From Candidatus Roizmanbacteria bacterium (lineage in GTDB: Bacteria; Patescibacteriota; Microgenomatia; UBA1406; GWC2-37-13): DNA of 64,000 bases. Positions 34,151-44,579 of the stretch are shown piece after piece. A model generated the notes under the pieces. That model had not been told where the DNA came from and searched no databases. It saw only the letters and a program-made list of their open reading frames with translations. The first letter of the stretch is position 1; the number at the start of each line of letters is the position of its first letter. Where the stretch lies: assembly GCA_013335175.1 (NCBI GenBank), contig JAAXWC010000005.1, positions 1 to 64,000 of the forward strand. The letters run 5' to 3'. A program made the translations under genes and the position numbers.

Positions 34151-36037
34151 TTAATATAATGCCCGGACCTTCAATGTCCCTGGAATTTGTTTCAATGCTG
34201 TCAAAACTTCCTGATCGTTAGCAGTATTTACATCGGTTATCACATACCCTATCTCTTCATCGGTTTTTAGATACTGTCCTTCTATATTTATATTTCTCTT
34301 TGCAAGAATCAGATTAATCTGTGCCAAAACTCCGGGGATATTTCGATGGATATGTAAAATCCGATGAAGGTTTACCAATTCTGGTAACTGAATACAGGGG
34401 AAATTAACGCTCAGAGTTGTATCTCCATTATTCATAAATGTGATGAGTTTTTGAGTAACATATTCTCCAATATTTTCCTGTGCCTCAACGGTACTCCCAC
34501 CAATATGGGGTGTCAATATGACATTTGGCAATTTTTGAAGCTCTGAAACGAATGGTTGCGTGTTACTCTCTGGTTCATGAGGGAATACATCTACCGCACA
34601 TCCCGCAATTTTTCCCTTCTTAATTGAGGCAACCAATGCATTGACATCTACAATATATCCTCTGCTATTGTTAATAAAAATAACATTATCTTTCATTTGG
34701 GTAAATTCATTTTCACCAATTAAATTACGATTTTGTTCTCTTCCATCAACATGAATGGAGATTACGTCAGAAACAGAAAGCAATTCTGATAAACTTTCCA
34801 CACACTTCGTATTTCCCAAAATAAGACGATCAATAATATCGTAACAATATACTTCCATCCCCATCATTTCTGCGAGAATAGAAAGCTGCGATCCAATATT
34901 CCCATATCCTACAATCCCAAGTTTTTTACCTCGAATTTCATAGCACCCTGCTGCCGATTTATCCCATTTTCCATTATGCAACCCCATACTCTTATCAAAA
35001 GCCTTTCGATAGAGCATAATAATTTCCCCCAGCGTGAGTTCTACTACGCTTCGCGTATTGCTATACGGAGCATTAAAAACGGCAATTCCTTTTTTTTCGC
35101 AGGCAGACAAATTAATTTGGTTTGTCCCGATACAAAAAGCTCCAATACAATGTAAGTGCTTTGCTTTTTTTACTACTTTTTCGGTTATTTCTGTTTTTGA
35201 ACGAATACACAAAATGTGAATCTCAGAAATTTTTTCCAGCAATTCTTCCTCTGTAAGCGCCTTCGCAACTGATTCCACCTCATACCCTTCCGACTCAAAC
35301 ATCTCCATCGCTTTTTTACTAATATTTTCGGTCAAAAGTACTTTTATCCGATGCTTGGGATACGAAAAGGCAGAAGGCAGTTTGAGTAAGTAGAGAAACT
35401 CATCAAAACTTGGCAGTATTGCATCGGCTTTAGGGATCAATACCTCTCGTGCCATATTCTCGGTAAATAAATAAAAAGAGTGTGCCTGACCTGCTGCTTT
35501 TATTTCATAATCAGAGTATCCATCGCCAATTACATGAATTTTCCCCGGTAACTGTAATGCTTTTATCTGTTTTATTTTCCCTTTTTCTTGTGCTAAGACA
35601 TTGGTTTCATCACATCCAGTTATCTCTCCTTTATTATTCACAACCAACGTATTGGCACATACATGATCTTCAGATATCCCAAACTCAGCAACAAGTGGGA
35701 CAATATACTCTCGAAATCCACCTGAGATGATATAAATCTGCGAAGCATAGTGCTGAAAAAATGCCTTATTGCGCAAAACAGAAGGCGTAATTTTTGATCT
35801 TAGTTCCAAATGAAGCCGTTGGAGATGCTCTTTTTTGAGTTTGAACAGAGCCAGTCGGGAATGTAATGAGGTAGAAAACGGGATCTCTCCATTCATCCCT
35901 TTCTGAGTAATTTCCTTTATTTGCTGCACCAATTGATCCTTTTTTGGATTCATTTCAAGTGCAATCTCCGCCAAACGATCGAGCGTTTCTATCTGAACGA
36001 AGGTACTGTCAAAATCTATAACAAAATGATCTTTCAT
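34151..36037 (-). CDS. Fusion: phosphoserine phosphatase-like HAD domain + 3-phosphoglycerate dehydrogenase
   Basis: A 628-residue fusion of first and last serine-biosynthesis steps. Residues 1-215 are a HAD phosphatase of SerB type: DFDSTFV with nucleophile Asp8 and Asp10, ISGGFREYI, and GDGYSDYE. Residues about 228-545 are a D-3-phosphoglycerate dehydrogenase: CIGTNQINL, Rossmann motif GIVGYGNIGSQ, NNSRGYIVD (Arg), HEPES (Glu) and TPHIGGST (His). Residues 555-628 are an ACT domain (HRNIPGVLAQINLILA), usually serine-binding for feedback control. The dehydrogenase resembles the E. coli form. SerC is the next gene, so two genes cover the pathway. HAD-at-N-terminus fusions with SerA are unusual. 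Confidence 0.9.
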   Translation of the reverse strand: MKDHFVIDFDSTFVQIETLDRLAEIALEMNPKKDQLVQQIKEITQKGMNGEIPFSTSLHSRLALFKLKKEHLQRLHLELRSKITPSVLRNKAFFQHYASQIYIISGGFREYIVPLVAEFGISEDHVCANTLVVNNKGEITGCDETNVLAQEKGKIKQIKALQLPGKIHVIGDGYSDYEIKAAGQAHSFYLFTENMAREVLIPKADAILPSFDEFLYLLKLPSAFSYPKHRIKVLLTENISKKAMEMFESEGYEVESVAKALTEEELLEKISEIHILCIRSKTEITEKVVKKAKHLHCIGAFCIGTNQINLSACEKKGIAVFNAPYSNTRSVVELTLGEIIMLYRKAFDKSMGLHNGKWDKSAAGCYEIRGKKLGIVGYGNIGSQLSILAEMMGMEVYCYDIIDRLILGNTKCVESLSELLSVSDVISIHVDGREQNRNLIGENEFTQMKDNVIFINNSRGYIVDVNALVASIKKGKIAGCAVDVFPHEPESNTQPFVSELQKLPNVILTPHIGGSTVEAQENIGEYVTQKLITFMNNGDTTLSVNFPCIQLPELVNLHRILHIHRNIPGVLAQINLILAKRNINIEGQYLKTDEEIGYVITDVNTANDQEVLTALKQIPGTLKVRALY

Positions 36038-36508: not shown

Positions 36509-36532
36509 TAGAACGAACTTATCGTATTGCCT

Positions 36533-37114
36533 ATGAAATTAAATATTATTTTGTTTATATTGGGAGGGATTGTTTTAGGTGTTTTTTCAGTAAACAGTCT
36601 GGCAGGATTTCCTCAAACACCAGCTTCGGAACCGGCGTCTGTCGTAAATGCTACGGCAACGCCTGAGATAAAAAGGCTACCGCCGACACGACTTATCATT
36701 ACAAGCCTTGGGATTGATACTCAGGTTGAACATGTGGGAAAAGATGCCAGAGGAGCAATGGATGTGCCAAAAAACGAATGGAATGTCGGGTGGTATAAAC
36801 TCGGCGCTATGCCGGGAGAAATGGGAAGCGCGGTGTTAGATGGCCATTTAGATACTGCTACCGGTCCGGCAATATTTGCTCATCTGGCTCGTCTCCAAAT
36901 TGGAGATGAAATTCGTGTTATAGATGGAGAAGGAGGAGAAAAAATATTTCACGTATTTCAGAAACAGACATTTTCTGATGCCACATTTCCCATAGAAGAA
37001 GTATTTGGGAAAAAAGACGGCAGATATTTAAACCTTATTACCTGTAGCGGAGTGTTTAATCATGTCACAAAAAACTACGTTGATCGCCTCGTGATTTTCT
37101 CACGGCTCGATTAG
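36533..37114 (+). CDS. Sortase family transpeptidase
   Basis: A cysteine transpeptidase of about 193 residues with an N-terminal signal anchor (residues 3-25). Catalytic residues are visible: His in VLDGHLDTA, Cys in LNLITCSGVF, Arg in YVDRLVIFSR. The core RLIITSLGIDTQVEHVG is that of the class D/E/F-like sortase fold. Start ATG 36533 is used; a TTG two codons earlier exists. It acts outside the membrane, attaching proteins to cell-surface acceptors; the preceding PQTG peptide is the only candidate substrate in the window. Confidence 0.9.
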   Translation: MKLNIILFILGGIVLGVFSVNSLAGFPQTPASEPASVVNATATPEIKRLPPTRLIITSLGIDTQVEHVGKDARGAMDVPKNEWNVGWYKLGAMPGEMGSAVLDGHLDTATGPAIFAHLARLQIGDEIRVIDGEGGEKIFHVFQKQTFSDATFPIEEVFGKKDGRYLNLITCSGVFNHVTKNYVDRLVIFSRLD

Positions 37115-37682: not shown

Positions 37683-39560
37683 TTACTTCGAAAACGCTTG
37701 TACAAAATCAATCGTTTTCTGACGTTCAGAAAGTGCCTTTTGAGCAGATACCTCCAAAGCGGTAAGAAGAGCCTCATATAGGTCTGTATTGAGAATCTGC
37801 GACATCTGAGTTATTGCTTGTCTTGCTTGTTTTGTGTGATGCATGATTTTGAGGACTACCTCATCTATGACTTCGGTCCAAAAGAGTTCCGATAATGGTT
37901 TTGTATCCGTGCAAGGGTGGTGAAGCAACAGTGTAACAACCGGAGTACTATGCTCCTGTTGGAGATCTGCTTCCCAATCGTGGGCATCGTCATGAAGCTG
38001 TTTAGCAATTAGATAATGACGAAAAAAAGTAGAGAACTGCTGAAAATAATCGGAGGTTTGATCATATCCTGCGGCCATGAGGATTCCCAGCGGACCCAGT
38101 GCATGGCCATAGGAACGATCAGCTAGTTTTTCATACTCTCCCCAACAGGGGTTCGCCTCTCTTCCTCGGCAATTACTCACCTCCCAGATATTTGCCGTGT
38201 CTACGATATTCATAATGGTATGAAATACCGACGCATACCCGGGGACGGTCTTTTCCATCTCAGAAGCAATAGTTGCGATTGTACGAAGCGCCATATTTGC
38301 TACAGAAAGCGTTTTAGGATCGCCTTCTTCATCCAAAAAATCATCATAAATAGTATATGCGAGCCACCCCAACACATTCGCCACACCCAGTTGAATCACA
38401 AGATCCGTATGAACCGGTTTTTTCGGATGGATCAAACTTTTTCGGACAAAATAGGGAAGCAACGCAATTATGTGACGGGAATCTTCTTTGAGAATTTTAT
38501 TGAAAAGCTGAAGAGCGTGGGTTTTCAGCGGTTCATCTAAGGATGAAAATAGTTCTTGTGTGGTACGGACAATTGTTTCATGAATGTTCTCTTTGTCCGT
38601 GTTTAAAATTATTTTTCGTTTTGTAGCTTCAAGATAGTTTCCAAGTGCTTCAATACAAAATGCGGTTGTCAACGCAGAAGAACCCGAATACAGTTTACCT
38701 TTTCCTGGTAAGACCTCTACCACAAAGGGGTAGACTCCCCAGTCGCCATTTTTATCCGTAAGCAGAAGATACTCAATATCTGATTCTAATTGAGAAGGAT
38801 CTTCTCCTGTTTTTAATAAGGCGGTAATACGCAGTGCGGTAAACAGCGGATCTCGCTGTTCCTGCTTCATATTCTTCAGGTATGTATTAAGAATATTCAT
38901 TTTTTTTCCGTTGTAACAGCGTGAAATAAAATACAAAACAGGCATTTCTCCATAGTAATAGGGAGAGTCAAACACCCCTTTCGTAATGAAAGAATCAATA
39001 AACCGTACTACGCGAGGGAGCGTAATCCCTTCACCTGCAAGAAAAAATGCTATATTTGCATTTACCGCAGTATCGATATCTTGCCATGTTTTGTCTGTAC
39101 TATGGGGAGCAACCCACGTTTTATACGGCCCACCCACTTTCACTTCTTGTTCTGTAAGCAGCTGTACTACTTTTGCAAGAACTTTTGGAGAAATAGCTTC
39201 GGGGCTATGTTTTTTTAATGCTGCAAGCGCGCAAAAGATATCATCAAGATCATCGGGAAATGGATATTTTTTCATTTCGGGAGTGTTTTTCCCCCAATAA
39301 TTAAATGTCCAAGCAGAAGTTTTTTGATGAAGAAGAAACTGAATCGATTTTTCAATCAGCTGGTGTGTATCCGTATTCTTTTCTAAACATTGCAAAATAA
39401 GATAGGTACTGAATGCTGAACGAAAGGAAACTGCATTTTGAAAGGTGGGTGATTGTGGAGTGGAAAAACTTACATAGCTGCCATCTTGTTCCTGATGTTT
39501 TTTTAGTGAGTCAATCCCCCGTTTGATCACCGTTTGTATTGCCAGCGATTTAACTGCCAT
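37683..39560 (-). CDS. Two-domain isoprenoid enzyme: squalene-cyclase-like toroid + polyprenyl synthase (ComQ-like) domain
   Basis: A 625-residue enzyme. Residues 1-315 form an alpha/alpha-toroid of the squalene cyclase/protein prenyltransferase-beta type: QW-like repeats QEQDGSY (23-29) and NGDWGVYPF (271-279), and PDDLDDIF (102-109) containing a class II cyclase DXDD (104-107). Residues 330-625 are an all-alpha polyprenyl synthase domain with both Asp-rich motifs, DDFLD (406-410) and DDAHD (524-528). The domain pair could make and cyclise a prenyl diphosphate or transfer it to a peptide. The start overlaps the kinase gene by 11 bp, and the kinase, a Trp-containing peptide and a regulator precede it. 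In Bacillus, ComQ, a polyprenyl-synthase homolog, prenylates ComX on Trp; by position this is the ComQ analogue. A stand-alone terpene synthase is the alternative. Confidence 0.8.
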   Translation of the reverse strand: MAVKSLAIQTVIKRGIDSLKKHQEQDGSYVSFSTPQSPTFQNAVSFRSAFSTYLILQCLEKNTDTHQLIEKSIQFLLHQKTSAWTFNYWGKNTPEMKKYPFPDDLDDIFCALAALKKHSPEAISPKVLAKVVQLLTEQEVKVGGPYKTWVAPHSTDKTWQDIDTAVNANIAFFLAGEGITLPRVVRFIDSFITKGVFDSPYYYGEMPVLYFISRCYNGKKMNILNTYLKNMKQEQRDPLFTALRITALLKTGEDPSQLESDIEYLLLTDKNGDWGVYPFVVEVLPGKGKLYSGSSALTTAFCIEALGNYLEATKRKIILNTDKENIHETIVRTTQELFSSLDEPLKTHALQLFNKILKEDSRHIIALLPYFVRKSLIHPKKPVHTDLVIQLGVANVLGWLAYTIYDDFLDEEGDPKTLSVANMALRTIATIASEMEKTVPGYASVFHTIMNIVDTANIWEVSNCRGREANPCWGEYEKLADRSYGHALGPLGILMAAGYDQTSDYFQQFSTFFRHYLIAKQLHDDAHDWEADLQQEHSTPVVTLLLHHPCTDTKPLSELFWTEVIDEVVLKIMHHTKQARQAITQMSQILNTDLYEALLTALEVSAQKALSERQKTIDFVQAFSK

Positions 39561-40974
39561 ATTGATCGATTGGAATAGTTATAGTAAAAATGGTTCCCTT
39601 TTCTTGTGTACTTTCCACGGTAATTGTGCCCTTGAAATCGTGTTCTATTACTTCCTTACAGATCGAAAGTCCAATACCACTTCCTTTTTCAAATCCCTTC
39701 GTTGTATAAAATGGATCGAACAATAAAGGAATCTCAGAAGTCGAGATACCTTTCCCCCAGTCTTGCACAGTACAAACTATACCGAGTTTTTTCTGAATAA
39801 CATGTATCGCAATAGTATGCTGTTCCTCCCCTGCTGAAACTCCTTCATAGGCATCGATGGCATTTGAAACCACATTCAGTATGACCTGACTAAATTTTAT
39901 TGGATTTCCCTTTACAAAAAAGGATTTTTCTGGCGTGTAGATTACTTCAATCCGTTCTTTTTTCGTTTTGTGCTCTAGTAACTTGAGGGTGTCTTCTATT
40001 TCTTGGTCGACGGAAAACACTTTTACCACGTCCTGATTCTGTAACTGGCGACGCGCGTTATAAATAAACTTTTCCAGTCGTTTTGCTCCTAAACTCGCCG
40101 TATGAATAGATTCCGTAATTTCCTCTGTTTTCTGAGTATCGATACGTTTACTTTGAACTTTTAATAACTCCAAATTCAGAGAGACTACATTCAGTGGATT
40201 CACAAGATCATGGAGTAATCCAGAAGTGATTTTGCCCATTTCAACAAAACGGTACAACTGGCTGATTTCTTCTATTTGAACACGTTTTAATTCTTGAGTC
40301 CTTTCCTCTACTTTTATCTCCAATAAATCACGTTCTTTTTTTAATTCTGCTTCCGAAGCACGCGCACGTTCCAAAGCTTTTTCACTTTCTCGATTAAATA
40401 GCCAGGAAATTAGAGCAATGATAAGAAATACAAAACTATAACTAAGAGCATCAGAAATTGTTGCTGCGTGTTGTTTCCAAGAGTAGTCTACCGGCAGTAA
40501 TTGATAATTTTGCAAATAATTAATTATCACCATTATCCCTGCTATCATAAATGAAACAAAAAAAGCAACCCGAGAGCTTAACAATATGCCAGACATAATA
40601 ATCATCAGAGAATATGTCAAAAGCGCAGAAGGGACACTAATTCCCCAATGAATAATTGTTAATGAGGAAACAAACAAACCAATAAAGATGAGGATATAAG
40701 AAACAATTTTATAACCTCCTTTTCGCGAAATATACAGAAGAATTACTAATAAAAATACAAATACTATCGCAAAAGATGGAGGAACTGCCTTTGAGCTTTC
40801 TACATTCATCAAATGAGTAACACAGTTATTCAAAACCGCTATCCCCGCTACACCAATAGAACCAACAAGGAGAATATTAAGAATAGATTCACGGCGCATG
40901 TCATCAGGATGAGAAGAGGTAGGAAGAAACAAACAACAATACAAGCGACTATATAGGGTATCGATAAACTTCAT
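39550..40974 (-). CDS. Six-helix membrane sensor histidine kinase (ComP-like position)
   Basis: Sensor kinase of 474-489 residues. Counting from the longest frame (ATG 41019), membrane helices lie near 46-66, 82-98, 104-124, 131-148, 151-168 and 191-208, with hardly any external domain, as in kinases that sense membrane-soluble peptides. A coiled coil (210-255) leads to the H-box GLLHDLVNPLNVV with phospho-acceptor His270, N-box NVVSNAIDAY, G1 DWGKG, F-box FDPFYTTK and G2 GSGIGLS. The ATG at 41019 is buried in a perfect 14-bp hairpin, so the in-frame ATG at 40974 is preferred, though neither has a good Shine-Dalgarno. The stop overlaps the prenyl-enzyme start. Confidence 0.9.
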   Translation of the reverse strand: MKFIDTLYSRLYCCLFLPTSSHPDDMRRESILNILLVGSIGVAGIAVLNNCVTHLMNVESSKAVPPSFAIVFVFLLVILLYISRKGGYKIVSYILIFIGLFVSSLTIIHWGISVPSALLTYSLMIIMSGILLSSRVAFFVSFMIAGIMVIINYLQNYQLLPVDYSWKQHAATISDALSYSFVFLIIALISWLFNRESEKALERARASEAELKKERDLLEIKVEERTQELKRVQIEEISQLYRFVEMGKITSGLLHDLVNPLNVVSLNLELLKVQSKRIDTQKTEEITESIHTASLGAKRLEKFIYNARRQLQNQDVVKVFSVDQEIEDTLKLLEHKTKKERIEVIYTPEKSFFVKGNPIKFSQVILNVVSNAIDAYEGVSAGEEQHTIAIHVIQKKLGIVCTVQDWGKGISTSEIPLLFDPFYTTKGFEKGSGIGLSICKEVIEHDFKGTITVESTQEKGTIFTITIPIDQYGS

Positions 40975-40987
40975 GAGAATAATAATA

Positions 40988-41019
40988 ATGCGAATTACGT
41001 ATAAGTACGTAATTCGCAT
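40988..41019. promoter_or_regulatory. Perfect 14-bp inverted repeat between peptide and kinase genes
   Basis: ATGCGAATTACGTA (40988-41001), a 4-base loop (41002-41005), and TACGTAATTCGCAT (41006-41019) pair completely. On the transcribed (minus) strand the hairpin starts 18 bases after the peptide stop and is followed by TATTATTATTCTC, only a weak U-run. It could be an attenuator or mRNA-processing stem that makes peptide more abundant than kinase, or a DNA operator for the response regulator. A TATAAT-like box directly before it on the minus strand (plus 41022-41027) may be an internal promoter. Confidence 0.75.
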
Positions 41020-41037
41020 TCATTATATAATATTTTA

Positions 41038-41151
41038 CTAAGCTACCGTCCACGGTTCAAAATTACCTTGATTTTTTACCGCCATTTTTTTAATTTCTTT
41101 TGCTGTTCGTGCATTTTTATCTGTCAACATTTTTTTCATTAATTCTGTCAT
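41038..41151 (-). CDS. 37-residue peptide with C-terminal ...GNFEPWTVA (candidate ComX-like pheromone precursor)
   Basis: A short gene between regulator and kinase. A strong Shine-Dalgarno AAAGGGGGTGA ends eight bases before ATG 41151; an in-frame ATG at 41172 overlaps that site and is less likely. The product starts MTELMKKML, is Lys-rich and helical through residue 26, then ends KNQGNFEPWTVA, the only Trp standing four residues from the end. There is no signal peptide, Cys or Gly-Gly leader. ComX precursors are about this size, lack signal peptides and are prenylated on a Trp near the C-terminus, then trimmed. The gap to the regulator is 37 bases. Being a short frame, coding status rests on the ribosome site, operon placement and the logic of the cluster. 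Confidence 0.75.
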   Translation of the reverse strand: MTELMKKMLTDKNARTAKEIKKMAVKNQGNFEPWTVA

Positions 41152-41188
41152 CTGCGATTCACCCCCTTTCATTGGATAATTATTAACA

Positions 41189-41857
41189 CTAAGCCTCAAT
41201 TTTATACCCCGCCCCATAGATCGTTTTTATGAGCTTCTTTTTATACTTTCGGTCTATAGAATCGCGTAAATACTTTATATGAACATCGACGGTGTTATAC
41301 GAAACATTGCTCATACTATTCCATACATGCTCCAAGAGCATGTCTCGGGTAACAACTCGCCCCGAATTTTGCATCAAATACTCTAAAATTGCAATTTCTT
41401 TCCGGCGCAGCTTAATCGGTGTTTTGCCCCGTCGCACAATACGACGATCTTTATCTAATTCTAAATTATCTAAAGACAGAGTCTCTTGAAGATACACGTC
41501 GGATTTTCGGCGAAGTAAGGCACGAATTCTTGCTTTTAATTCTGATTGATCAAACGGTTTTGTGAGATAGTCGTCTGCGCCCTTGTCGAAGGCAAGAACT
41601 TTTTTTGCCACCTCGTTTTCACCCGTTAAGATAAGAATTGGAGTAGTGATTTTTTCACTTCGTATGGCATTGCAAATAGAGAGTCCTTCTGCATCTGGCA
41701 AAATGAGATCAATAATGATTAAGTCGTAACAGTTCGTGAGTGCTAAATACTCTCCCCGCTTTCCGGTAAAAGAGAGATCTACAATATAATTATTCTTCAA
41801 CCCATTTTTAATAGTCAAACCTAAGTCTCGATCATCTTCGATGATAAGTATGCGCAT
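41189..41857 (-). CDS. OmpR-family response regulator
   Basis: A 222-residue DNA-binding response regulator. Receiver domain (1-118): acidic pair IIEDDRD, phospho-acceptor Asp50 in IIIDLILPDAEG, Lys in YLTKPFDQSE. DNA-binding winged helix (125-222): LELDKDRRIVRRGKTPIKLRRKEIAILEYL... and YNTVDVHIKYLRDSID, as in OmpR/PhoB proteins. It is the first gene of the four-gene cluster. The -10-like TAACAT (plus 41864-41869) ends six bases before its ATG, suggesting a leaderless start. ComA of Bacillus is a NarL-type regulator, so this output module is different. Confidence 0.93.
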   Translation of the reverse strand: MRILIIEDDRDLGLTIKNGLKNNYIVDLSFTGKRGEYLALTNCYDLIIIDLILPDAEGLSICNAIRSEKITTPILILTGENEVAKKVLAFDKGADDYLTKPFDQSELKARIRALLRRKSDVYLQETLSLDNLELDKDRRIVRRGKTPIKLRRKEIAILEYLMQNSGRVVTRDMLLEHVWNSMSNVSYNTVDVHIKYLRDSIDRKYKKKLIKTIYGAGYKIEA

Positions 41858-42005
41858 ATAGACATGTTAAAAATCAATTCTTAAAAAAATATTAAATTTT
41901 GATAGAACGACTCTTCAAATCTTATCTCTTTTTTGTTTCTTTTTCATCCTATTTTCACGTACCCTGTCTAAACTATACATTGTTATTACTTATTAAAATT
42001 ACGTT

Positions 42006-42511: not shown

Positions 42512-43360
42512 CTACTCCCACGGAAAATGTGGAACTTCGGAAACTGCGCGTAACGAATAATCTGGCTGAATTTGGGAAATAGACATGGTATAAAGACAGG
42601 CAGTTTTTACCAGCGCCCCCTTTTGCTCCAAATATTTTTTCACAACAATAAGACTTTTTCCCGTTTCGAGCATATCCTCTACCAAAAGAATAGTTTTCCC
42701 CGAGATATCTTCTGAAATTTCGGTCGTAACCTTCCGTTCATTTCCCATCTTTGTCACGGAAAGACAAAACATTTGTTTTACCTTAAGTTTTGATGCAAGC
42801 ATTCTTGCAGGAATCATTCCACCCCGAACAATACCAATGATAATGTCTGGAGTACTCTCAACACGTTTGCTGAGGATGTCAATTTCCTCGTTTAGCTTTT
42901 CCCAGGTAACAATATTTTTATTCGTGGTTCCTTTCTCCCGTATATACGCTTCGATGTCCCGTTTTATCCCCGGATGACTGGCTAAATGAAGTGCATCCTC
43001 CGGTGTGAGCCATTGGTAATCTGTATGTTCCTCCGAGAGCGTAACCGTATCTGATTCTGTTTTTGCCCAGTAGATGATGCCTATCACTTCTTGTTCCGCA
43101 GTTTTTTCGCCACGGAAAATGTGGAAGTTTGAAATCGGTTTAATAACATCTATAGATACTCCTGCCTCTTCCAGAGCTTCACGTTTCAGAGCTTCCTCTG
43201 GCTCTTCAAACTGCTTCATCCTGCCTATTACTTCTTCCCAAATACCACCCGAAAAATCTGCCTTTTCAGATCGTTTTATCAGCAATATGCGCCCGGTTTT
43301 TGCATGTTCAATAACAGCCCCAACCGCTACCATAAACCGACCCTCAGTTGATACAGACAT
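42512..43360 (-). CDS. Fusion: Nudix hydrolase + phosphoribosyltransferase
   Basis: A 282-residue fusion. Residues 1-145 are a Nudix domain with the box IGRMKQFEEPEEALKREALEEAGV (intact REALEEAG core; the first Gly region is slightly altered). Residues 155-282 are a type I phosphoribosyltransferase with GIVRGGMIPA and the PRPP loop ILLVEDMLETGKSL. Such a fusion could hydrolyse a damaged nucleotide and salvage the base, or act as a PRPP-related regulator. It starts four bases after the next Nudix gene and forms part of a run of Nudix genes. Confidence 0.88.
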   Translation of the reverse strand: MSVSTEGRFMVAVGAVIEHAKTGRILLIKRSEKADFSGGIWEEVIGRMKQFEEPEEALKREALEEAGVSIDVIKPISNFHIFRGEKTAEQEVIGIIYWAKTESDTVTLSEEHTDYQWLTPEDALHLASHPGIKRDIEAYIREKGTTNKNIVTWEKLNEEIDILSKRVESTPDIIIGIVRGGMIPARMLASKLKVKQMFCLSVTKMGNERKVTTEISEDISGKTILLVEDMLETGKSLIVVKKYLEQKGALVKTACLYTMSISQIQPDYSLRAVSEVPHFPWE

Positions 43361-43363
43361 ACC

Positions 43364-43765
43364 TTAAGCAAATAACTGAAAATAGTGTTCTAGTGCCTTA
43401 TAATAATCGGTACTATCTTTAAATTGGGTGTAATTATCTTTATTCACCCAGTGAAAATTGTCATGTTCGTCAGAAAGGCTCACTTCACCTGAAACGTAGG
43501 TACAGCGGTAACCGGTGAGAAAGCTCTGTTCTATTGTGGTTGGATGTTTAAAAATCCATGTAGTAAATGGGTTCCCAACCTGAATTTCAAGAGTTGTTTC
43601 TTCGCGCACTTCTCGCTGAAGCGCAGTGATTAAATTCGTTTCACCGACCTGGATTCTTCCTCCTGGGAAATCTAATCCTATTAACGGATCATGTAATATA
43701 AGAATTTCCCCTTTTTTTTCAATAAATGCTTTTTGTGCTGCATAAAAAAGCTGATTCTCGTTCAT
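43364..43765 (-). CDS. Nudix hydrolase
   Basis: A 133-residue single-domain Nudix protein. The box GGRIQVGETNLITALQREVREETTLEI fits GX5EX7REUXEEXGU except that the penultimate Gly is Thr. Substrate unknown; many such enzymes act on damaged dNTPs or nucleotide sugars. It is the upstream partner of the Nudix-PRTase fusion (gap 3 bp). Confidence 0.9.
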   Translation of the reverse strand: MNENQLFYAAQKAFIEKKGEILILHDPLIGLDFPGGRIQVGETNLITALQREVREETTLEIQVGNPFTTWIFKHPTTIEQSFLTGYRCTYVSGEVSLSDEHDNFHWVNKDNYTQFKDSTDYYKALEHYFQLFA

Positions 43766-43810
43766 AAAGAAATTATACCACCTTCCTATACAATCAACCT
43801 CGGGGGTTGA

Positions 43811-44077
43811 TTATGTTTTTGTGACGCTCTGATTTAAAATTAATTTTTCTTTCTTATTTTTCGAAAGTTTTTTTACTTCAATTTCGCGTTTCAAAACTCC
43901 AGAAACTGTTTCGTATTTTTCACAATATACCAGCTCAACAGGCAAACGTCCCCGTGTATACTTTGCAGATTTTTTTCCTCCCTCGTTGTGCTCTTTCACT
44001 CGACGTTCAATATCAGTAGTCTGCCCACAGTACAGAGAGTTATCAGAACAACGAAGAAGATACATATAGTAAATCAT
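43811..44077 (-). CDS. GIY-YIG domain protein
   Basis: An 88-residue UvrC-type GIY-YIG nuclease domain of the YhbQ/UPF0213 type: YYMYLLRCSDNSLYCGQT contains the two Tyr, followed by DIERRVKEHN with the Arg and KSAKYTRGRLPVELVYCEKY. Possible DNA-structure nuclease. ATG 44077 is preferred to the earlier frame overlapping the Nudix gene, which begins with TTG. Confidence 0.92.
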   Translation of the reverse strand: MIYYMYLLRCSDNSLYCGQTTDIERRVKEHNEGGKKSAKYTRGRLPVELVYCEKYETVSGVLKREIEVKKLSKNKKEKLILNQSVTKT

Positions 44078-44090
44078 GCTTTTTCTCCCT

Positions 44091-44579
44091 TTAAATTTTG
44101 TAATAGGGAACATTTCCAAACTTTTCTCGATATACCTTTATTGCTGCCTGCTGATACACGCTCAGTTGGTCTTCCTCTATTTCCGATAAAGGAAGAATAT
44201 GTATTTTATTAATTTTTTTTGGTTCCTTGATAGTTGGTATTCCTGAGTGCAGTCTGCATAGATAATCAACAACTACCCAGAAGGGGTCTTTTTCACCTGG
44301 CATAATTTTGATGGTTAATACATCGGAAATCTCTACCTCTACTCCTATCTCTTCCCTTATTTCTCTTTGCAATGCTTCATGGAGATCATACTCAGTTTTG
44401 CGTACTCCACCTCCAACTCCTTCCAACTTGCCAACCGCATCTCTCGCTCTTTCTCCTCTTTCAAGAAGAATTACCTTATCATCTGAAGTAAAAATGAGCG
44501 AACCAACCGCAAGTTTATACTCTTTTGGAGCGTCTTTTAACTTCGAAACATAATCCATCAATTCTGCAACAGTTTTCAT
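44091..44579 (-). CDS. Nudix hydrolase
   Basis: A 162-residue Nudix protein with box GGGVRKTEYDLHEALQREIREEIGVEVEI (a canonical REIREEIG core). The N-terminal 25 residues add a helix. Third Nudix domain within 2 kb. The substrate is unpredictable; the neighbours (YbaK, GIY-YIG, VOC) suggest a detox/quality-control cluster rather than a dedicated pathway. Confidence 0.9.
   Translation of the reverse strand: MKTVAELMDYVSKLKDAPKEYKLAVGSLIFTSDDKVILLERGERARDAVGKLEGVGGGVRKTEYDLHEALQREIREEIGVEVEISDVLTIKIMPGEKDPFWVVVDYLCRLHSGIPTIKEPKKINKIHILPLSEIEEDQLSVYQQAAIKVYREKFGNVPYYKI

Follow-up and report, generated by a model that had tools for sequence, protein, structure and literature searches.

A conserved regulator-peptide-kinase-enzyme cassette of Patescibacteria with the predicted parts of a prenylated-peptide signalling system

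The subject of this study is a four-gene cassette in a 64,000-nucleotide stretch of Candidatus Roizmanbacteria DNA (contig JAAXWC010000005.1, positions 1 to 64,000; hereafter the window), in which genes for a response regulator, a short peptide, a histidine kinase and a two-domain enzyme occupy positions 37683-41857, all on the minus strand. We consider it probable (about 0.8) that this cassette encodes an autoinducing signalling system whose signal is a peptide prenylated on a tryptophan (Trp) residue, and the odds somewhat favour cyclisation of the prenyl chain in those lineages where the enzyme keeps the DxDD motif of class II terpene cyclases.

Results

The elements of the cassette are as follows.

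41881-41896, minus strand: 11-bp direct repeat TTTAA-N6-TTTAA, 39 bp before the regulator start codon; likely regulator site (predicted)
41189-41857, minus strand: OmpR/PhoB-type response regulator, phospho-acceptor Asp50; Pfam Response_reg and Trans_reg_C
41162-41170, minus strand: ribosome-binding site AAGGGGGTG of the peptide gene, read from the sequence
41038-41151, minus strand: precursor peptide, 37 residues; leader with L9 and R15, Trp34 followed by the C-terminal TVA
40987-41020, minus strand: terminator-like hairpin in the peptide-kinase gap, 15-bp stem and T-rich tail; possible attenuator
39550-40974, minus strand: membrane histidine kinase, 474 residues; Pfam HisKA and HATPase_c; six predicted membrane helices
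37683-39560, minus strand: enzyme gene, overlapping the kinase gene by 11 bp
38607-39560, minus strand: enzyme N-terminal domain (approximately residues 1-318), beta domain of the class II terpene-cyclase type; DxDD motif PFPDDLDD
37683-38606, minus strand: enzyme C-terminal domain (approximately residues 319-625), trans-prenyl-synthase fold with DDFLD and QxxDDxxDW; predicted Trp prenyltransferase

This layout bears out the initial annotation of the window, which had described four co-oriented genes in the order regulator-peptide-kinase-enzyme, an OmpR-type regulator with Asp50, a 37-residue frame with a strong ribosome site and a lone Trp near its end, a kinase with six membrane helices and an 11-bp overlap between the kinase and enzyme genes. 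The kinase start was moved from 41019 to, probably, 40974 (MKFIDTLYSRL...) because the 15 extra codons would cross the terminator-like hairpin (41020-40987), and all six helices are predicted downstream of the revised start.

The precursor peptide of the window, MTELMKKMLTDKNARTAKEIKKMAVKNQGNFEPWTVA, contains a single Trp, and in a relative of the same family (G013), the enzyme of which is 42% identical and in which the kinase is also present, the peptide MKKLMEKILTDKKARNATALMTFLMSVMVVGWPWEPSA is found at the same place. The frame in the regulator-kinase gap is 33-40 residues long and often preceded by a GGAGG-like site. Altogether 46 peptide genes were collected; the same leader type is seen in 44 of these, the Trp is followed by 1-6 residues in all 46, and Pro-Trp is present in 37. 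In an alignment of 34 homologous peptides M1, L9, R15 and W34 are invariant and the core is variable.

As the frames were sought in a first pass without a Trp criterion and in a relaxed second pass with one, the claim concerning the Trp was tested separately, using shuffles and a profile. A leader-plus-Trp frame is present in 32 of 35 homologous upstream regions, the number expected from Markov-shuffled versions of them being 0.2, and no leader-bearing frame in these regions is without the Trp; the conserved frame is more than chance. In a six-frame search of 380 genomes of the phylum, the peptide profile matched 14 genomes, in each case beside the enzyme (14/14) and including seven not used in building the profile, and it matched none of the 360 enzyme-free genomes (hypergeometric p = 3e-21, or 9e-12 for the held-out matches alone); the match in the window's own genome has an E-value of 5.6e-14. 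The peptide is also present in the further held-out loci G648, G522 and G670. At one locus (L013) the frame is present without the usual start codon, and at three others (L018, L024 and L025) the upstream sequence ends early or is too short for the peptide to be judged. Pfam families matched by single peptides (e.g. Transcrip_reg, E=0.002) were treated as chance, since no other peptide shares them.

The regulator-peptide-kinase-enzyme order recurs in about 30 Patescibacteria belonging to many candidate phyla. A scan of one genome per species returned 39 enzyme loci, nearly all of them in Patescibacteria groups with a few labelled just 'bacterium', and most of these have a regulator, a gap, a kinase and an enzyme in this order; the scan used sequence patterns from Patescibacteria, and distant homologues elsewhere may be missed. 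The regulator is placed after the enzyme in L117 and L119, and in the G013 cassette (L007) a RhuM-family-like gene (766-1977) lies between kinase and enzyme. The adjacency that the initial annotation had suggested seeking in other Patescibacteria is therefore found; of the outcomes that it had named as damaging to its proposal, none was encountered, as the frame is kept in relatives, the Trp is invariant amid variable residues, and kinase and peptide accompany the enzyme at most loci. An origin from phages or plasmids and a role in defence were rejected: a pattern scan detected no relatives in viral contigs, plasmid matches were of the toroid type only (in Nostoc and Novosphingobium), and PADLOC returned no hit that would indicate a defence system.

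With regard to the enzyme, for which an AlphaFold2 model of high confidence was obtained (predicted local distance difference test score, pLDDT, 92.9), the polyprenyl-synthase domain of the initial annotation is only weakly matched by Pfam (polyprenyl_synt PF00348, E=0.07), and it is the fold of the C-terminal domain that corresponds to farnesyl and octaprenyl diphosphate synthases (Foldseek, E<0.001, template modelling score by target about 0.6-0.7). This domain contains a first DDxxD motif and a second, Gln-xx-Asp-Asp-xx-Asp-Trp, of which Q521, D524, D528 and W529 are invariant. In ComQ-like transferases the second Asp-rich site and its preceding Gln recognise Trp instead of isopentenyl diphosphate, as summarised in a review (PMC13290415), the indole being recognised by this Gln in known transferases (PMC10853753, PMC13290415). 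PalQ of Paenibacillus alvei is a Trp prenyltransferase of prenyl-synthase fold in which a Gln next to the second Asp-rich site is conserved (PMC10853753), but it is without a cyclase and needs its Trp at the very C-terminus, whereas 1-6 residues follow the Trp in the cassette peptides. In L024 the first Asp-rich motif reads DNIID, and a methyltransferase-like gene (1635-2351) separates kinase and enzyme. Proteins of approximately 670 residues in G335 (L143, 2416-4434) and G206 (L144, 293-2302), which match polyprenyl synthases weakly (E 1e-15 to 1e-19), were set aside as a different family; they are unrelated to the enzyme profile, and their N-terminal stretch appears to resemble a nucleoside deoxyribosyltransferase fold.

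The N-terminal domain, which the initial annotation had noted as an extra toroid without recognising a terpene-cyclase beta domain with an invariant DxDD, matches drimenol synthase 9mhs by profile (E=4e-17) and by fold (Foldseek, E=2e-10), with the catalytic Asp aligned, and also matches MstE by fold. Its PYPDDLDD motif (PFPDDLDD in the window) aligns to PDDLDTT of drimenol synthase. There the chain recorded as the D333N mutant has PDDLNTT, so the aligned Asp is the residue that was mutated to trap substrate (PMC12365925). All 36 of the diverged enzymes compared have D104, D106 and D107. Profile, motif and modelled fold identify the toroid as a domain of the class II terpene-cyclase kind with a catalytic DxDD motif. 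The class II beta domain is shared with MstE and with the HAD-type bacterial drimenol synthase AsDMS, the PDDLDTT Asp of which aligns to the toroid DxDD; AsDMS differs in being fused to a phosphatase and in binding farnesyl diphosphate through arginines that are not conserved in the cassette enzyme. G436 encodes a toroid domain on its own (L088, 4154-5176), with PDLDD and an N-terminal membrane segment but no transferase, kinase or peptide.

The combination of these two domains is reminiscent of plant bifunctional diterpene synthases, abietadiene and miltiradiene synthases being weak full-length matches, and given the conserved catalytic DxDD the enzyme could be read as a bifunctional class II/class I terpene synthase, whose free terpene is sensed by the kinase while the peptide is accessory or regulatory. 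This is highly improbable in our estimation, as the C-terminal domain possesses the QxxDDxxD of prenyl synthases and not the NSE motif of class I cyclases, and as neither the invariant Trp near the peptide end nor the strict co-occurrence of peptide and enzyme, nor the Pro-Trp peptide that still lies beside cyclase-less enzymes, would be expected if the product were a free terpene.

Those cyclase-less enzymes (L089 and L090) consist of the transferase alone, and the frames beside their kinases are shorter, are without the usual leader and end in PWRS or LPWY. A second group (L083-L086) has lost DxDD, keeping the GGPY part of the toroid and leader-bearing peptides. All six loci lie beside a kinase except L086, where the peptide directly precedes the enzyme. 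The Trp thus goes with the transferase and the leader with the toroid remnant, the latter link resting on two cases (L089 and L090). This pattern would suit a non-catalytic toroid that docks the leader peptide, the Trp then receiving a linear prenyl group only, as would the fact that the positions aligned to the diphosphate-binding arginines of drimenol synthase carry other residues. Since these arginines are not conserved, the cyclase may be active only once the prenyl group has been transferred, or it may serve as a leader-binding scaffold; diphosphate-binding arginines are, however, not required of MstE-type enzymes, MstE itself acting on an already prenylated aromatic, and invariance of the three Asp residues across such diverged enzymes exceeds what docking would need. 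We would therefore bet against a purely docking role, while granting it an appreciable chance.

The kinase model (AlphaFold2, pLDDT 83.7) and hydropathy indicate six membrane helices joined by short loops; its core matches the HK853 and ZraS folds, and in the fold search the core alone was matched, with no sensor domain recognised. By Pfam, it is of the HisKA type (PF00512) and not HisKA_3 (PF07730), while the regulator carries Trans_reg_C (OmpR) and not the NarL/GerE domain (PF00196). Divergence of enzyme and kinase is correlated (r=0.72, p=0.001), as is that of the transferase half and the kinase membrane half (r=0.68), shared ancestry explaining part of both correlations. Strong hairpins at the peptide-kinase position occur in several other loci, and a terminator after the peptide was rejected as a universal feature, being present in part of the loci only.

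Concerning control of the cassette, TTTAA-N6-TTTAA has one match in the whole window, that at 41881-41896. In the regions preceding the regulator, or the peptide if this has promoter space of its own, the strict repeat is present at 7 of 33 loci (0.4 expected) and the relaxed form YTTWA-N6-YTTWA at 19 of 33 (2.3 expected). As the repeat was first spotted by inspection, the shuffle test is post hoc and the spacing profile provides the better control; in this profile of the strict repeat the 6-base spacer, corresponding to 11-bp periodicity, alone stands out. The repeat is the likely binding site of the regulator and its position suggests autoregulation of the cassette, consistent with an OmpR-type regulator that controls the operon to which it belongs.

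These control elements bear on whether the product may instead be a lipidated ribosomally synthesised and post-translationally modified peptide (RiPP), antimicrobial or host-directed, with a two-component system that regulates or answers to it and no population signal. The fusions ChrPC and NctPC do modify Trp in RiPP precursors (PMC13290415), and the short leader-core layout, together with the hairpin after the precursor gene in several loci, is RiPP-operon-like. We nevertheless find this improbable, as transporter, protease and immunity genes are not conserved in the cassette whereas kinase and regulator are, and as the likely regulator site in the cassette's own promoter points to autoinduction.

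A canonical polyprenyl diphosphate synthase (PF00348, E 1e-36 to 1e-58), a potential source of the prenyl donor, lies in or beside 8 of 46 cassettes, compared to about 0.4 expected by chance from a simple density estimate; its gene follows the enzyme with a 4-bp overlap in L011, L032 and L042, and in one genome it lies between regulator and peptide. At genome level, a PF00348 synthase is present in 11 of 20 enzyme-bearing and 93 of 360 enzyme-free genomes (Fisher p=0.008, genome relatedness being uncontrolled). IspH was detected in 1 of 18 carriers and 3-hydroxy-3-methylglutaryl coenzyme A (HMG-CoA) reductase in 3 of 18, which suggests that many carriers obtain isoprenoid precursors from elsewhere. 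The window's genome has an HMG-CoA reductase and, outside the cassette, a PF00348 synthase. Contig C36 of this genome (L124, 2264-5595) bears a probable carotenoid cluster of a prenyl diphosphate synthase, a lycopene-cyclase-like gene and a CrtI-like oxidoreductase of the amine-oxidase family; given these neighbours the synthase probably forms geranylgeranyl diphosphate, which is thus likely to be available.

Elsewhere in the window, a sortase gene (36527-37114) adjoins the cassette and is preceded by a small frame for a secreted product rich in proline and threonine; this neighbourhood is not conserved with the cassette at other loci. Three Nudix-like genes are clustered at 42512-44579, one apparently fused to a phosphoribosyltransferase-like domain, and at 34151-36037 an apparent fusion of phosphoserine-phosphatase-like and phosphoglycerate-dehydrogenase-like parts is followed by an aminotransferase gene, forming a compact serine pathway.

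Discussion

In the mechanism that we propose, a 33-40 residue precursor would be made and bound by the fused enzyme, the C-terminal domain of which would prenylate the Trp close to the peptide C-terminus, probably with a C15-C20 group. A second step, in most lineages, would be ring formation in the attached chain by the N-terminal class II cyclase domain, with protonation through DxDD, and the modified peptide would be trimmed and released by functions outside the cassette. The six-helix kinase may sense the modified tail in the membrane and phosphorylate the OmpR-type regulator; by binding the 11-bp direct repeats that precede the transcription unit containing the peptide gene, the regulator would raise expression of that unit, thereby closing a positive feedback loop.

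Several observations weigh against this mechanism. In addition to the missing DxDD of L083-L086 and the unconserved arginines, L043, L044 and L047 have a degraded first Asp-rich motif, two loci (L008 in G046 and L009 in G044) carry the enzyme without a kinase or peptide nearby, and neither an exporter nor a protease accompanies the cassette in a conserved manner. Furthermore, 9 of the 20 enzyme-bearing genomes sampled lack a separate PF00348 synthase and most carriers tested lack both IspH and HMG-CoA reductase. Regulator sites are not enriched genome-wide over a reversed-pattern control, and for this reason no target genes are claimed.

The initial annotation had likened the cassette to ComQXPA. 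The functional likeness is supported: in the window and at most homologous loci, four adjacent co-oriented genes encode a predicted prenyl-synthase-like transferase, a precursor with a Trp near its C-terminus and a variable core, a membrane histidine kinase and a regulator, and short overlaps between genes are a further resemblance. Strict membership is not supported, as the peptides are 33-40 residues in length, compared to 52-73 for ComX (PMC4008528), possess another leader and, among the 34 examined, give no match to Pfam ComX (PF05952) at E up to 10; furthermore the kinase is HisKA rather than HisKA_3, the regulator OmpR rather than NarL, the gene order A-X-P-Q or X-P-Q-A, and the enzyme bears an N-terminal cyclase and is sometimes accompanied by a dedicated donor synthase. 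In view of the ComX, HisKA_3 and NarL results the cassette should not be filed as ComQXPA; it appears to work like that system with parts that are probably convergent or swapped, rather than descending as a unit from the Bacillus system. A 2014 census reported ComQXPA-like loci in Firmicutes only (PMC4008528), and quorum-sensing genes of these lineages were surveyed in 2020 without mention of ComX or ComQ in the main text (PMC7567580).

The enzyme kind has precedent in ChrPC and NctPC, fused transferase-cyclases which prenylate the Trp of RiPP precursors and then cyclise the chain, the ChrPC transferase being of trans-prenyl-synthase type and taking C10-C20 donors (PMC13290415). As described in that review, these enzymes resemble the predicted cassette enzyme in joining a Trp prenyltransferase and an MstE-like class II cyclase in one chain, with a precursor nearby, and differ in that the cassette enzyme has its cyclase at the N-terminus and has two-component partners. 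We found no report, in the accessible literature, of fused Trp transferase-cyclases in signalling or in Patescibacteria.

It is tentatively suggested, at odds a little short of even, that the cassette represents a lineage-spanning cell-to-cell signal of Patescibacteria, in which a Trp peptide capped with a cyclised terpenoid is made by a fused cyclase-transferase and perceived by two-component autoinduction, the isoprenoid often being host-derived, a source proposed since IspH and HMG-CoA reductase are absent from most carriers tested. The conserved precursor-transferase-kinase-regulator set across many candidate phyla gives uncultured epibionts a concrete candidate signal that can be put to the test, and dozens of predicted pherotypes are available for synthesis. 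If the proposal holds, signalling would be tied to isoprenoid supply, possibly from the host, cyclised-terpene peptides, so far a matter of RiPP chemistry, would enter bacterial communication, and these epibionts would have a chemical language resembling that of Bacillus.

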